Of a DNA stretch of 64,000 bases, positions 19,360-27,784 are shown piece after piece. The DNA comes from Thermosipho melanesiensis BI429. GTDB lineage: Bacteria; Thermotogota; Thermotogae; Thermotogales; Fervidobacteriaceae. The DNA lies in the NCBI RefSeq assembly GCF_000016905.1, contig NC_009616.1, positions 496,001 to 560,000 of the forward strand, written 5' to 3'. The notes below the pieces were generated by a model, which made no database searches, was not told where the DNA came from, and saw only the letters and a program-made list of their open reading frames with translations. Within the stretch, counting starts at the first letter, position 1. Each line of letters begins with the position of its first letter. Made by a program: the position numbers and the translations under genes.

Positions 19360-21946
<2,587 letters not shown>

Positions 21947-23818
21947 CTATACCAATTCTATAGCGTTGAATTTACATTTTTCAAAACATATACCACACTT
22001 AATACATTTCTCCTGGTCAATTACGTATGGTTTACCCCTTTCTCCACTAATAGCGTTTTGTGGACATGCCCTTGCACAAAGACTACAACTTTTACAAAGC
22101 TCTGGATTTATTACATACTTTTTCAACGCAGTACACGTACCACTTGGACACTTTCCATTTATATGCTCTATATACTCTTCTCTAAAATGTTTTAATGTGC
22201 TTAGAATTGGATTTGGAGCTGTTTTACCAAGACCACATAATGACGCTGTTTTAATAATCTTTGCCAAGTACTCTAGATTTTCAAGGTCTTCTTCTGTAGC
22301 TTTCCCCTGAGTGAATTTTTCTAGAATGTTGTACGCTTGCATAGTTCCTTCTCTACAAGGTACGCATTTTCCACACGATTCTCTCTTTGTAAAGTCAAGG
22401 AAAAACCTTGCAACTTCAACCATACAACTATCTTCCGTTATTGCAACTATTCCGCCTGAACCTACCATAGCATCTATAGATTTTAAAGTGTCATAATCAA
22501 GTGGTAAATCAAAATATTTTTCCGGAAGACATGCACCTGATGGCCCACCAATCTGTATCGCCTTTATCTTCTTTCCGTCTGTTGTACCACCACATATATT
22601 TTCAAGTACATACCTTATTGTAGTTCCAAACGGTATTTCAATTATTCCCGTAAGTTTAAGCGGACCAGTAACTGAAAACATCTTTGTGCCTGGTGATTTT
22701 TCAACGCCATTTTCTCTGTATTTTTTTACCCCATCTCTAATTATCTTTGGAACATTTGCGTATGTTTCCACATTGTTTATCAAAGTGGGATAACCCCAAA
22801 GTCCTTTTTGTGCGGGAAAGGGGGGTCTTGGTCTTGGCACACCTCTTTTTCCTTCAATAGATGCAAGAAGAGCCGTTTCTTCACCACAAACAAATGCTCC
22901 TGCTCCTTCTTTAACCTCTAAATCAAATGAAAACCCCGTACCCAAAATATTTTCACCAAGTAATCCCAAAGCTTTAGCATCATTTATAGCCTTATTAAAC
23001 ATTTCAACTGCAATGGGGTATTCCGCACGGATATATGCATAACCTTTTTGCGCTCCCACTGTGTACGCGGCAATAATCATACCTTCAAGTATAGAATGAG
23101 GATCTCTTTCAAGTAACGTTCTATTCATAAATGCACCTGGGTCACCTTCGTCTGCATTACAAACAACAAATTTCTTATCACCTTTTGCTTTGTAGGCAAA
23201 TTCCCACTTAAGGCCTGTAGGAAATCCTCCTCCACCTCTTCCACGAAGACCGGAAGCTTTTATTGTCTCTATAACTTCTTCTCTTTTCATAGAGGACAAT
23301 ACCTTTAAAAGAGATTTGTATCCTCCACGCCCCATGTAATCTTCTATTTTTTCACACTCACTTGTTCCAATACCTTCCATTATGTAAAATTTTTGATTTT
23401 TAAAAAACGTTGCATCCTCAAGTCTTTTTATCTTTTTACCAGTTACCGAATCGGTAAGCAGCAATCTATCAATTATCTCTCCTTTTTCCACTGTTTTTTC
23501 CACAATTTCTTCAACATCATCTACTGTAACATGATGATAAGTAATACCTTCGGGTGTTATCTTTACAAGAGGCCCTAATGAACAAAGTCCACAACATCCT
23601 GTTTTTTTCACCGTTGGATGTTCGTCTTCCGCCTCAACTTTTACATCTAAACCTTTGTTTGTAATGACCTCAACAAATTTTTTATACACCTTTCTAGAAC
23701 CATTTGCGGTACAACCTGTCCCCACACAAACATATATCTTTTTTTCTTTTAATCTTTCCTCTCTCAATCTTTGTTGTTTTTCAATATATTCAAGTGCTTC
23801 ATTTATTGTCTTAAACAT
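21947..23818 (-). CDS. hydB: Hydrogenase subunit HydB (NuoF-like)
   Basis: The flavin and NAD(H)-binding subunit, 623 aa, thought to be the bifurcation site. In order: thioredoxin-like [2Fe-2S] domain (CVGTGCTANGS), NuoF FMN-binding GLRGRGGGGFPTGLKWEF, NADH-site glycine-rich stretch, the [4Fe-4S] motif SCGKCVPCREGT, and a C-terminal two-cluster ferredoxin (CKSCSLCARACP, CIKCGICFEKC). I placed the start at ATG 23818, one base after the hydC stop, because the upstream ATG at 23830 touches the Shine-Dalgarno GGAG. Confidence 0.97.
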   Translation of the reverse strand: MFKTINEALEYIEKQQRLREERLKEKKIYVCVGTGCTANGSRKVYKKFVEVITNKGLDVKVEAEDEHPTVKKTGCCGLCSLGPLVKITPEGITYHHVTVDDVEEIVEKTVEKGEIIDRLLLTDSVTGKKIKRLEDATFFKNQKFYIMEGIGTSECEKIEDYMGRGGYKSLLKVLSSMKREEVIETIKASGLRGRGGGGFPTGLKWEFAYKAKGDKKFVVCNADEGDPGAFMNRTLLERDPHSILEGMIIAAYTVGAQKGYAYIRAEYPIAVEMFNKAINDAKALGLLGENILGTGFSFDLEVKEGAGAFVCGEETALLASIEGKRGVPRPRPPFPAQKGLWGYPTLINNVETYANVPKIIRDGVKKYRENGVEKSPGTKMFSVTGPLKLTGIIEIPFGTTIRYVLENICGGTTDGKKIKAIQIGGPSGACLPEKYFDLPLDYDTLKSIDAMVGSGGIVAITEDSCMVEVARFFLDFTKRESCGKCVPCREGTMQAYNILEKFTQGKATEEDLENLEYLAKIIKTASLCGLGKTAPNPILSTLKHFREEYIEHINGKCPSGTCTALKKYVINPELCKSCSLCARACPQNAISGERGKPYVIDQEKCIKCGICFEKCKFNAIELV

Positions 23819-23819
23819 A

Positions 23820-24305
<486 letters not shown>

Positions 24306-25445
24306 CTAAAAATATTCAATGTTAATAATCTTTCCCTTTTCTTCCAATATCTTTGCAATATCGTGGATAAGTCTAAATTTTAAAGAAATGTCGTGCGTAA
24401 AAAGGGGATTTTGATGCGCGGGGTTTATTGCCCGACCTACAAGAAAATTTATTACATCTGCCCAATCAAGCAGGTCTATTATCTTTTTAGCTCCAACACC
24501 CATTTCTTCTATCTGATTTTCATAATATCTGAACACCTGTGTTAATGTAATTATCCCTTCTGTTACTAAATCTATCCCTTCCATATATCCAACTGGTGGC
24601 GAAATTTTAGATATACTCCTTACATCTATATCTATCTTCTTACCCGTTACCCTTTCAACTATTTGCCCTGTTGTTCCACCACAAATTACCTTTTTCCCCT
24701 TTGAATTAATAAGTTTTTCAACTACTTCTTTGTCTTTTTCCTCTTGTTCGGGCGGACCCACCATAATTGTCAATATCCTTTTTTCTCTAATCTTTAAACC
24801 TGCAATTAATGCATCATCACCTTTTGTACCTTTATCCAACTTTTTTGCCAGTTTTATCATATGTTCCACAATATTCACATGTTCCACTTTATTTTTTATT
24901 AGATTTCTCAGTTCAAACCTTATATTTTCCTCTCCAAAACCAAACGGAAATTTTTCACTTCCCATCCCCGCCTGGGATATCCCATCAGTCATTAAAAATA
25001 TAGAATCTCCAACGTTTATATCCATCTCGCTTACATAAAGATATTTGTTACTTACACTTTTTTTCACCTTTTTTAAGGGTATCAAATCATCGTTTTTAAA
25101 ATAAAAAATCAACGGAAATTCATATTCAAATATTGTACATCTCTTTTTTTTGTAATCTATTAGACAAGTGGCAAGCGTTGAGTAACTTATCCTTCTTACT
25201 TTACAAGTTGGAAGTGTTGACAAAATGGAACTAAAAACTTCTTCTATAGACACATTGTTAAAAACCATAGTAGTGGACATAGTAGATGTTAGCGTTGATA
25301 GTATATTTGCCTTAACTCCACTTCCCAGACCATCTGAAACACTTACCACACATTTTTCTTCGTTTCTCTTTATATTAATAGAATCTCCGCAAACCCATTC
25401 TCCACCTTTATTTTTAAATGCATAATTTATTTCACAGGTAATCAT
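24306..25445 (-). CDS. SpoIIE/PP2C-type phosphatase of the hydrogenase operon
   Basis: A 379-aa protein. The first 230 residues form a SpoIIE-like PP2C phosphatase: metal-binding Asp in VVSVSDGLGSGVKA and in IFLMTDGISQAG, and a final GDDALIAGLKI. The C-terminal 150 residues (VGPPEQEEKDKEVVEKLI onward, with CGGTTGQIVERVTG) are a domain I cannot name. Start ATG 25445 follows GAGG and lies one base after the stop of the sensory hydrogenase gene. It probably relays the sensory hydrogenase state by dephosphorylating an unknown protein. Related genes occur in the T. maritima hydrogenase cluster. Confidence 0.85.
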   Translation of the reverse strand: MITCEINYAFKNKGGEWVCGDSINIKRNEEKCVVSVSDGLGSGVKANILSTLTSTMSTTMVFNNVSIEEVFSSILSTLPTCKVRRISYSTLATCLIDYKKKRCTIFEYEFPLIFYFKNDDLIPLKKVKKSVSNKYLYVSEMDINVGDSIFLMTDGISQAGMGSEKFPFGFGEENIRFELRNLIKNKVEHVNIVEHMIKLAKKLDKGTKGDDALIAGLKIREKRILTIMVGPPEQEEKDKEVVEKLINSKGKKVICGGTTGQIVERVTGKKIDIDVRSISKISPPVGYMEGIDLVTEGIITLTQVFRYYENQIEEMGVGAKKIIDLLDWADVINFLVGRAINPAHQNPLFTHDISLKFRLIHDIAKILEEKGKIINIEYF

Positions 25446-25446
25446 T

Positions 25447-27006
25447 TTATTCCTCCATAAATTTCTTGAACTCCACAAAGTGAGATTTTGTTTCCGCAAT
25501 AGATTCTCCAAGAAGACTTGCAATTTCCTGTGCAAGAAGCATTTGCTTGTTCAATACTTCTTCTATCTTTTCTATGGTTTGTTTTTTCAACATTTTCATC
25601 TTTTCTTCTTGTTCTATTTCTTTTGTTATATCAGTTAATATAAATACTTCTCCACTGTTTTCAGGTAGTAAAAACCTTTTCGTCAAAAATTTATACCTTC
25701 TCCCATTAATTTCCATCTCTTCTATCTGGTTATTATTAATGTTTTTAACAAGTTCCATAATTTTTACATTCGAAAGAGACATAAATTTCAATCTTGCTAC
25801 TTTGTTTTTGTATACTATCTTTCCATTATGAGTGATAATTATTAAATTCGGCGTTTCCTCAACAAGCATATTACTCACACTTGATACCTTTTCAATTAGA
25901 TATGTAATACACATTTCTTTTTCTGCTTTTTTTTCTAAAACCGCTATTGCCTTTTCTTGACATGTATCATACCCACATGCACTACAATTTAATTCCTTTG
26001 ATTTGTCAGACTTTCCCATGGATATGAGAACTTTTTGAATTTCTTCTTTTGAATATTGCACTTCCTTTTTCTGTGATAAAAATTTTCTTTTCAAATCTAT
26101 ATCAAATTCCGTTAAATCACCTTTTGGAAGTTTTTTTATGCTTTTTAGAAGCCTCGTTTTTTTCTCTATAAGACTTATATCCTTTCTACTACAGGGACCT
26201 TCAATACACCCCCCTACACATGCAGACATTTCAATAAAATACTTTTCATCTATCACATCTAATCTAGATAAAAACTTCTTAATATTTTCAACACCCTCTA
26301 TTGTAATGTGATTTTGAAAATTAGTGTTTTTTATAATTCCACCTGTTATTGGATAATACCTTCCCATATTTGGATATGGTGCATCAGGAAATGCTTCATC
26401 AAAATTTTCATCAAAAACTTCTTCAAGCTCCTCAAATGTTATCACCACATCAAAATATCCTTCAAGCTCTCTTTTTTTAGCAATACATGGACCCAAAAAT
26501 ACCAAAGGAAAATCATAAAGTTTCTTTAAAATCTTTGCATGTGCAACTGCAGGTGATACAACATTTGCCAAAAAGTCTATTTTTTCTGGAAAGTATTTTT
26601 CAATAAGTTCTACAACAACGGGACAAGCAGTTGAAATTACTGTTTTGTCAAATTTTTCATATTCTCTTGACACATATTCGGCACCAAGCGATGTTTCATT
26701 AACAATCGCTCCGTTTTTTTTGAGAAACGCAATTACCTTAAATGGGTTATCAAAATGCGCAAAAAACGATGGGGCAATTGAAACAACAAATCTATTTCCA
26801 AAGAGCAAAAGCAATTTATCTAAATCTTTCTTGTAATTTTTCGCGTTTTGTGGACATATTTCTATACACGTTCCACAAACTATACATTGTTCATCTATAA
26901 CTATTGATTTATTTTCAGAAAACGATATGGACTTCACTGGACAATTTCTTAAACATTTGTAGCAATATTTACAATTCGCATCATTTGAAATAATATACTT
27001 TTCCAT
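25447..27006 (-). CDS. Sensory [FeFe]-hydrogenase with PAS domain (HydS-like)
   Basis: A 519-aa protein. N-terminus: two [4Fe-4S] motifs (CKYCYKCLRNCP, CIVCGTCIEICP). Then an H-cluster domain with reduced signatures: STACPVVVE instead of TSCCP (about residue 127), FLGPCIAKK, and MSACVGGCIEGPC. The four H-cluster ligand cysteines remain, but the proton-shuttle Cys is Ala. Next a CSACGYDTC Fe-S motif, then a PAS-like domain (about 375-465) and a C-terminal helix. This matches the sensory hydrogenase HydS described in T. maritima, thought to sense H2 or redox rather than turn over H2. No kinase domain; the PP2C gene is next. Confidence 0.9.
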   Translation of the reverse strand: MEKYIISNDANCKYCYKCLRNCPVKSISFSENKSIVIDEQCIVCGTCIEICPQNAKNYKKDLDKLLLLFGNRFVVSIAPSFFAHFDNPFKVIAFLKKNGAIVNETSLGAEYVSREYEKFDKTVISTACPVVVELIEKYFPEKIDFLANVVSPAVAHAKILKKLYDFPLVFLGPCIAKKRELEGYFDVVITFEELEEVFDENFDEAFPDAPYPNMGRYYPITGGIIKNTNFQNHITIEGVENIKKFLSRLDVIDEKYFIEMSACVGGCIEGPCSRKDISLIEKKTRLLKSIKKLPKGDLTEFDIDLKRKFLSQKKEVQYSKEEIQKVLISMGKSDKSKELNCSACGYDTCQEKAIAVLEKKAEKEMCITYLIEKVSSVSNMLVEETPNLIIITHNGKIVYKNKVARLKFMSLSNVKIMELVKNINNNQIEEMEINGRRYKFLTKRFLLPENSGEVFILTDITKEIEQEEKMKMLKKQTIEKIEEVLNKQMLLAQEIASLLGESIAETKSHFVEFKKFMEE

Positions 27007-27011
27007 TGCTA

Positions 27012-27236
27012 TTACCTTTCTTTCATGAATTTTTTCACAATCTCTTGAACATTTTCCGGGGATACATGCGATACCAGTTCACCATCTATTTCAATGTTTA
27101 TTCCACTTTCACACTTTCCAAAGCAGAGGGAACCATAAAGCTTTAAATTTTTTATATCTAGCTCTTTTATTTTTTTTACTACATCATATGCACCTTTCAA
27201 ATGGCAAGAACTTCCCATGCAAATCCTTATTCTCAT
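27012..27236 (-). CDS. Thioredoxin-like [2Fe-2S] protein
   Basis: A 74-aa free-standing [2Fe-2S] domain: CMGSSCHLKGA and CFGKCESGI give the four ligands, like the NuoE-type C-terminal domain of HydA. It is the first gene of the hydrogenase operon, behind AGGTGATATT. It probably passes electrons to or from the sensory hydrogenase. A counterpart heads the same cluster in T. maritima. Confidence 0.9.
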   Translation of the reverse strand: MRIRICMGSSCHLKGAYDVVKKIKELDIKNLKLYGSLCFGKCESGINIEIDGELVSHVSPENVQEIVKKFMKER

Positions 27237-27246
27237 AATATCACCT

Positions 27247-27280
27247 ATCGTGAAATAAATAACGTTATATTTTTCACGAT
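27247..27280. promoter_or_regulatory. 34-nt palindromic operator of the hydrogenase operon
   Basis: Two 17-nt arms, centred on AACGTT, match at 15 of 17 positions; outer arms ATCGTGAAA / TTTCACGAT are perfect. Each half, CGTGAAATAAATAACG and CGTTATATTTTTCACG, is itself a degenerate palindrome of CGT(G/T)A...TAACG. The element begins 1 nt past the -10 box, so a bound protein would block transcription start. The halves resemble the Bacillus Rex site TTGTGAA-n-TTCACAA with a changed outer base. Rex is encoded in the operon, which makes it the prime candidate. Confidence 0.75.
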
Positions 27281-27281
27281 T

Positions 27282-27310
27282 ATTTTAACGCGAAAAAATC
27301 ATTTTGTCAA
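27282..27310 (-). promoter_or_regulatory. Sigma-70 promoter of the hydrogenase operon
   Basis: Minus strand: TTGACA (27310-27305), 17-nt spacer, TAAAAT (27287-27282). This is a near-consensus housekeeping promoter placed just before the palindrome and 46 nt upstream of the first gene. Confidence 0.9.
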
Positions 27311-27318
27311 GTAATAAA

Positions 27319-27784
27319 GAGTGTGTTCAAAAAAACTATATTCCGACTTCCAAAGATGAGGGGAAAGAAGATAAGGGAAGTGTCTTCTCACGTGAAGATG
27401 GAACTGATGGTGGGCAGGAAAGAAAAAGGAGGTAATCCCATACTGGTTGGTGTAAATATGGGACCTGCATACAGTGACGAAAGGAAACTTTTGCTCGAAC
27501 TGATGAAGGGTATAAAGATAAAAAACAAAGTGCATGATGGGAGATGCTCTATGAGTATTGAAGTGCTGAAAGATTTCATTGAAAGGTCAGAATTAGTCGT
27601 GGTAAAAGACGAAAAGCTTTGAGAGAGTGGTGAAGAGCATTTGGGCGAAACTGACCCTATACAACTGGACAATAGTAATTTTTTTGTTTGCGTTGTTTGC
27701 AATGGTTAAAAGGAATTTTCAAGGTAATCCAAAGGTTACCATCTCACTGAAATAGTGAATAATGCTTATTTTTGAAACACACTC
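27319..27784. mobile_element. Decayed insertion sequence with TIRs and 9-bp target duplication
   Basis: Left end GAGTGTGTTCAAAAA (27319-27333) and right end TTTTTGAAACACACTC (27769-27784) are inverted repeats with one indel. The 9-mer AGTAATAAA lies directly outside both ends (27310-27318 and 27785-27793), a perfect target-site duplication. The 466-bp body holds a transposase remnant, so the element is an internally deleted IS. A 9-bp duplication and the coding remnant suit an IS4-like element. It abuts the -35 box of the hydrogenase promoter. Confidence 0.8.
27323..27755 (+). pseudogene. Remnant transposase
   Basis: An open stretch (27323-27622) reads KKIREVSSHVKMELMVGR, KEKGGNPILVGVNMGPAYSD and ERKLLLELMKGIKIKNK, which resembles part of a DDE transposase of the IS4 group. 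After a frame change, 27636-27755 reads SIWAKLTLYNWTIVIFLFAL and ends KVTISLK-stop, like the C-terminal end of such transposases. The part between, including the catalytic Glu region, is gone. It lies wholly within inverted repeats. Family placement is tentative. Confidence 0.6.

Follow-up and report, generated by a model that had tools for sequence, protein, structure and literature searches.

What reads the long palindrome at the head of the [FeFe] hydrogenase operon of Thermosipho melanesiensis? The window analyzed here is a 64-kb stretch of this 1.9 Mb genome. A promoter scan found a −35 hexamer TTGACA (27305..27310) and a −10 hexamer TAAAAT (27282..27287), both on the minus strand. The combination TTGACA-N17-TAAAAT conforms to the consensus at 11 of 12 positions, the top of five promoter-like matches in the region. 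TTGAC lies near the same place in most of the promoters aligned below. One base past the −10 hexamer begins a 34-bp palindrome, ATCGTGAAAAATATAACGTTATTTATTTCACGAT (27247..27280, read 27280-27247 on the minus strand), in which 15 of 17 pairs match with no spacer. The preliminary description had a near-consensus promoter running into a 34-nt palindrome, and our coordinates and pairing agree with this. It is the sole spacer-free palindrome of such quality within the window; a first-order Markov model predicts 0.033 such palindromes per 64 kb, and 2e-4 per 120 nt at the local AT-rich composition. On the Markov expectation and the conservation of the double pattern described below, we rejected a chance palindrome. 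Directly 3′ of it we read a ribosome-binding site AGGTGA (27241..27246, minus strand), and 10 nt separate the end of the palindrome from the ATG of the first gene (27236). In Thermotoga maritima transcription starts 7 bp downstream of the −10 element (PMC3636130). By that rule the start is predicted near 27275, and the palindrome would span about −5 to +28. Opposite the promoter lies a divergent 99-aa ORF (27323-27622, plus strand) that matches no Pfam or NCBIfam family and by eye is possibly an IS remnant.

The operon comprises genes A to G, all on the minus strand. Gene A (27012..27236; PF01257) encodes a TM1420-like thioredoxin-fold [2Fe-2S] protein with orthologues in relatives. Judged by position and domain, gene B (25447..27006; PF02906, E = 2e-32) probably encodes a HydS-like sensory [FeFe] hydrogenase. 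Gene C (24306..25445, start approximate; PF07228) encodes a SpoIIE-type phosphatase. The NuoE-like subunit of gene D (23820..24302; PF01257), the NuoF-like subunit of gene E (21947..23830; PF01512) and the [FeFe] hydrogenase HydA of gene F (19973..21934; PF02906 above cutoff) make this a HydABC-type [FeFe] hydrogenase operon. The best match of HydA is to NF040763, group A6 (E = 1e-185), yet it falls below the curated cutoff. Gene G (19360..19989), the last in the operon, overlaps hydA and encodes a Rex protein, here called hyd-Rex (NF003996, PF06971 and PF02629; wing GRPKIGY); a Rex at the operon end had been noted before, and gene G at 19989-19360 is that Rex. The gene order A-G is the same in most relatives. 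It presumably corresponds to T. maritima TM1420-TM1427, and we take TM1427 to be the T. maritima locus of hyd-Rex, the second Rex of that organism. We found no mention of TM1427 in the open-access literature searched, and a prior description is possible. TM1420-1422 have been described as sensory and TM1424-1426 as the trimeric hydrogenase (PMC3561251). The T. maritima HydS has also been described, and was assumed to regulate hydrogenase expression (PMC10055695). The operon varies in content elsewhere. In G029, A-B-C and rex are retained on either side of a hydrogenase cluster that has diverged, G026 has kept hyd-Rex after losing most of the operon, and a Dictyoglomus MAG, outside the Thermotogota, has D-E-F-rex together with the end of C. 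No double site was found in this MAG, whose assembly totals only 1.3 Mb and whose contig begins partway through the operon.

The 34-mer consists of two 14-bp Rex cores of the form GTKA-N6-TMAC, GTGAAAAATATAAC and GTTATTTATTTCAC, which abut with their centers 14 bp apart. Site 1, TCGTGAAAAATATAACGT (27262..27279, minus strand), has the core GTGA-N6-TAAC at 27277-27264 and lies over the predicted start site; this copy served as the anchor for aligning all 40 promoters. Site 2, ACGTTATTTATTTCACGA (27248..27265, minus strand), has the core GTTA-N6-TCAC at 27263-27250, abutting core 1. The two overlapping CGT(G/T)A...TAACG elements pointed out in the preliminary description are present as the 16-mers 27263-27278 and 27249-27264. 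Both sites match the canonical core of the Rex operator, but not its outer TT/AA (TTGTGA...TCACAA). Among the 72 outer half-sites of the 36 distinct hyd operators, 52 have C at position 4, 17 have T and 3 have A, against a background of 15% C, and we have therefore filed the operator as a variant. The half-site had been remarked to differ from the textbook TTGTGAA, and indeed the outer flank is mostly TC, not TT. Because the two cores abut, the G of each core forces a C beside the other, so only the outer half-sites are informative on specificity; an argument for C-specificity from the inner half-sites was dropped for this reason. Site 2 is absent or degenerate in some promoters of the Fervidobacterium group, and the single 18-bp copies found there show that the unit is 18 bp. 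A single 34-bp site was rejected on the same ground. The palindrome is thus real, but it is two abutting Rex operators and not the one palindromic operator first proposed. Two genomes (G034 and G046) apparently have one core more, which keeps to the 14-bp phase.

Conservation of the palindrome in relatives had been put forward as a check, and it proved strong. Scanned over 103 genomes of the phylum, the double-site pattern was matched in 33 of them, with few exceptions at a single place, and the reversed control was matched in none. It occurs at the hydrogenase promoter in 32 of 39 genomes with hyd-Rex, against 1 of 64 without (Fisher 1e-18, kinship not corrected); the sole match in a non-carrier, a GC-rich one in G043, is probably due to chance. 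The seven carriers without a double site are G012-G016, with single or degenerate sites (the gene A promoter was not directly read for G013-G015), G029, with a decayed second site, and G026, with most of its operon lost. Four contrasts within genera agree with the association (G064/G066 against G065, G051 against G050, G035-39 against G040 and G027 against G028). Every genome with a close operon also has hyd-Rex, and the operator travels with the operon, so the co-occurrence with hyd-Rex is partly linkage.

The operator is conserved at the 40 aligned promoters (36 distinct 34-mers). Mean pairwise identity over the 27 distinct double-site operators is 0.78, compared with 0.39 and 0.29 in the flanks, although the rows were anchored on GTGA...T[AC]AC and the identity is therefore partly ascertainment. 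Columns A4, A5 and A9, which are outside the anchor requirement, are also invariant. Where gene D has a promoter of its own in the Fervidobacterium group, that promoter carries a site, single or double, in all 10 genomes examined, and each of the four gene A promoters read in that group has one as well. Such conservation favors function over chance. An extra TCGTGAAAAATTTCT-like element stands just before the −35 in most of the Fervidobacterium-group gene D promoters (L067-L082), and in that of G016 such an element lies ~56 bp upstream of the operator.

The genome encodes a second Rex protein (Rex1, G000:1225719) that is 36% identical to hyd-Rex. By eye, the copy of this second type in G035 matches the solved chain of T. 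maritima Rex1. In a tree hyd-Rex, plus the Dictyoglomus sequence, is separated from Rex1 with support of 100/99. hyd-Rex is a member of the Rex family, scoring 310.9 bits with NF003996 against a cutoff of 138, and its N-terminal DNA-binding domain (PF06971) and C-terminal Rossmann-type domain (PF02629) are both above cutoffs. The major-groove residues equivalent to Arg48-Lys49 are RKD in all hyd-Rex sequences save for RRD in G002. Aligned by eye with solved Rex chains, hyd-Rex keeps, at the level of sequence, the NAD(H)-binding glycine motif (GAGNLG) and the Tyr/Asp pair that serves in NADH sensing (the Tyr in ALAKYTGF and the Asp in NQDIT). The Arg60-Gly61 of the Rex wing is where it departs: Pro-Lys or Pro-Arg takes its place in 38 of 39 hyd-Rex sequences, as part of a wing G-x-P-K/R, while 16 of 16 Rex1 sequences have an RG-type wing. 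We have treated this as a variable feature and not as exclusion from the family. The exception, G002, has the wing GQKKKGY yet a CG-type operator. In the structure of T. maritima Rex1 bound to DNA, Arg60 contacts T4 and Gly61 contacts T3 in the minor groove (PMC8836258). The same paper calls Arg60 an exception to conservation in one passage and highly conserved in another, and this contradiction makes the wing argument weaker.

The outer base also differs between the promoters of the two paralogues. TTGTGA-N6-TCACAA-like sites lie 33-64 nt before rex1 in G000, G025, G030, G028, G012 and G013 (L094, L168-L171, L175), and Rex1 appears to be autoregulated. At rex1 promoters position 4 is C in 0 of 12 half-sites (Fisher 2e-6 against hyd, kinship not corrected), a comparison that rests on the six of sixteen rex1 promoters read that have a detectable site. 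At the alcohol dehydrogenase (adh) promoters of two genomes that lack hyd-Rex (G063 and G065), C is found in 0 of 8, with only T or A. The hyd operators favor TCGTGA, as a preference and not a rule. The link between the wing change and the base preference is a correlation, and G002 breaks it. The Thermotoga hyd promoters (L085, L086, L088-L090) have an added TTGTGA-type site ~50 bp upstream of the doubled operator.

The genome has 10 forward matches to CGTKA-N6-TMACG and 1 to the reversed pattern used as control. One repeat accounts for three of the ten, and coding sequence for some others. The three, at G000:758398, 1638460 and 1652080, have identical CGTGAATTTCGTAACG matches, and are probably part of a repeated element and not Rex sites. 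Across the phylum, single TCGTKA-N6-TMACGA sites are not clearly commoner than their reversed control, and single-site CG matches elsewhere were set aside, many being inside coding sequence and looking like chance. There are intergenic CG-type sites before an iron-type alcohol dehydrogenase-like gene in G000, G024, G025 and G064, and before an acyl-CoA dehydrogenase-like gene, which in G000 and G012 (G015 too, and partly others) has an EtfB-like gene after it; these genes were named by eye from sequence, with no family search. Several of these promoters have a pair of sites some 56-67 bp apart. A scan for the half-site before other redox genes had been suggested in the preliminary description, and similar variant sites lie before the adh-like and acyl-CoA dehydrogenase-like genes. 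The adh promoters of Thermosipho have a TTGTGA-type proximal site and a CG-type distal site. At adh and acyl-CoA dehydrogenase-like promoters there are often two Rex-like sites about 56-78 bp apart (L310-L318, L326-L332), an arrangement that might allow looping. The T. melanesiensis genome also has a second adh-like copy with an internal stop (1 TAA; L325), probably a pseudogene. Near the GKPK-wing Rex of Spirochaetota, Bacteroidota and others no convincing CG sites were found.

Rex as the binder of the operator is well supported by inference, from the Rex core, the conserved position, the co-occurrence with the rex of the operon and the variant sites elsewhere. With two paralogues in the genome, the Rex named in the preliminary description is ambiguous, and cross-binding by Rex1, which may also act at the hyd promoter, is the main rival. 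It seems unlikely that this operator is chiefly controlled by Rex1 (TM0169-type, G000:1225719), with hyd-Rex working elsewhere or modulating only. GTKA-N6-TMAC is the generic Rex core, T is found at 17 of the 72 outer half-sites, Thermotoga hyd promoters carry an upstream TTGTGAAGTAGGTAACAA or similar, and a T. maritima Rex1 regulon, with bound operators, is reported to include hydrogen production (PMC8836258). Yet the rex1-promoter sites, lacking C in all 12 half-sites, are of the TTGTGA type where hyd operators prefer TC, and genomes with Rex1 only are without the double operator, though they are also without a close operon. Alternatively both Rex proteins might share the sites, competing or mixing, and the doubled operator would then combine the inputs of two NADH sensors that differ in set point. 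This is a possibility that we hold to be doubtful; it overlaps with control by hyd-Rex and is compatible with it. The mixed pair of sites at the Thermosipho adh promoters fits such sharing, as does the occurrence of both single-site and double-site forms, but the two site classes sort mostly by promoter.

Two further explanations do without Rex. A DNA-binding regulator of another kind, such as one that takes its signal from the HydS/phosphatase pair, could read the palindrome as one 34-bp site. The operon does encode a HydS-like protein and a phosphatase, and HydS has been assumed to be regulatory (PMC10055695), but the single versions of the site show an 18-bp unit with Rex spacing, and a Pfam scan found no DNA-binding domain in either protein; we regard this as very improbable. 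The palindrome might also work as RNA, in the form of a 5′-UTR hairpin beside the ribosome-binding site, since a transcript from about 27278 could fold with −7.3 kcal/mol. This fold is no clear improvement on shuffled sequences (z = −1.2; 28 of 200 shuffles fold as well), covariation is absent at the spacer positions (79 of 162 pairs, against 79.5 by shuffling), the long palindrome is absent from single-site Fervidobacterium-group promoters and no Rfam family was matched. A role as RNA is scarcely credible.

We consider it likely that the 34-bp palindrome is a doubled variant operator of the operon-encoded hyd-Rex, which would repress and autoregulate the operon and be released by NADH. We infer the binding of hyd-Rex, the joint binding of both dimers, the release by NADH and the repression, the last two because of the biology of the Rex family and the position of the sites. 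At low NADH, hyd-Rex dimers would occupy both cores, which cover the predicted start site and the ~28 bases transcribed first, and would keep the hydrogenase genes, and rex with them, from being transcribed. A rise in NADH would release hyd-Rex, and the NADH-using hydrogenase would be made. H2 would then be released and NADH would fall, giving negative feedback with autoregulation.

Two repressor dimers on one short stretch, on different faces of the helix, are familiar from DtxR-type and similar repressors. The putative two-dimer occupancy is alike, but here the spacing is 14 bp and the protein family is another. Among the closest known systems is T. maritima Rex1 (TM0169; PDB 5zz5-5zz7, 7wb3) with its TTGTGA-N6-TCACAA operator, which has the same GTKA-N6-TMAC core in a promoter-overlapping position. 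The two proteins have their domains, RKD recognition motif and NAD fold in common. hyd-Rex differs in its Pro-Lys wing in place of Arg-Gly and in being a separate paralogue within the hyd operon, and its operator in preferring outer C over T and in having two abutted cores with 14-bp center spacing. Caldicellulosiruptor bescii likewise has Rex sites at a bifurcating [FeFe] hydrogenase operon, and the Rex sites of its core targets mostly overlap or come after promoter elements (PMC8579813). There the site is a 20-bp palindrome that resembles the other Rex motifs of clostridia; in T. melanesiensis the Rex is a second one, encoded in the operon, and the operator is of CG type and doubled. Within the known kind of Rex control, hyd-Rex would be a paralogue whose operator is shifted and doubled.

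More tentatively, the Thermotogota may have two insulated Rex circuits. An ancient Pro-Lys-wing Rex would read TCGTGA as side-by-side dimers at an exact 14-bp phase, two or, in G034 and G046, apparently three, in a cooperative array that would sharpen the response of hydrogenase expression to NADH. The locus offers a testable case of duplicated NADH sensors whose DNA targets are possibly told apart by a single base in each half-site, and it names the regulator that likely sets hydrogen production in Thermotogota.
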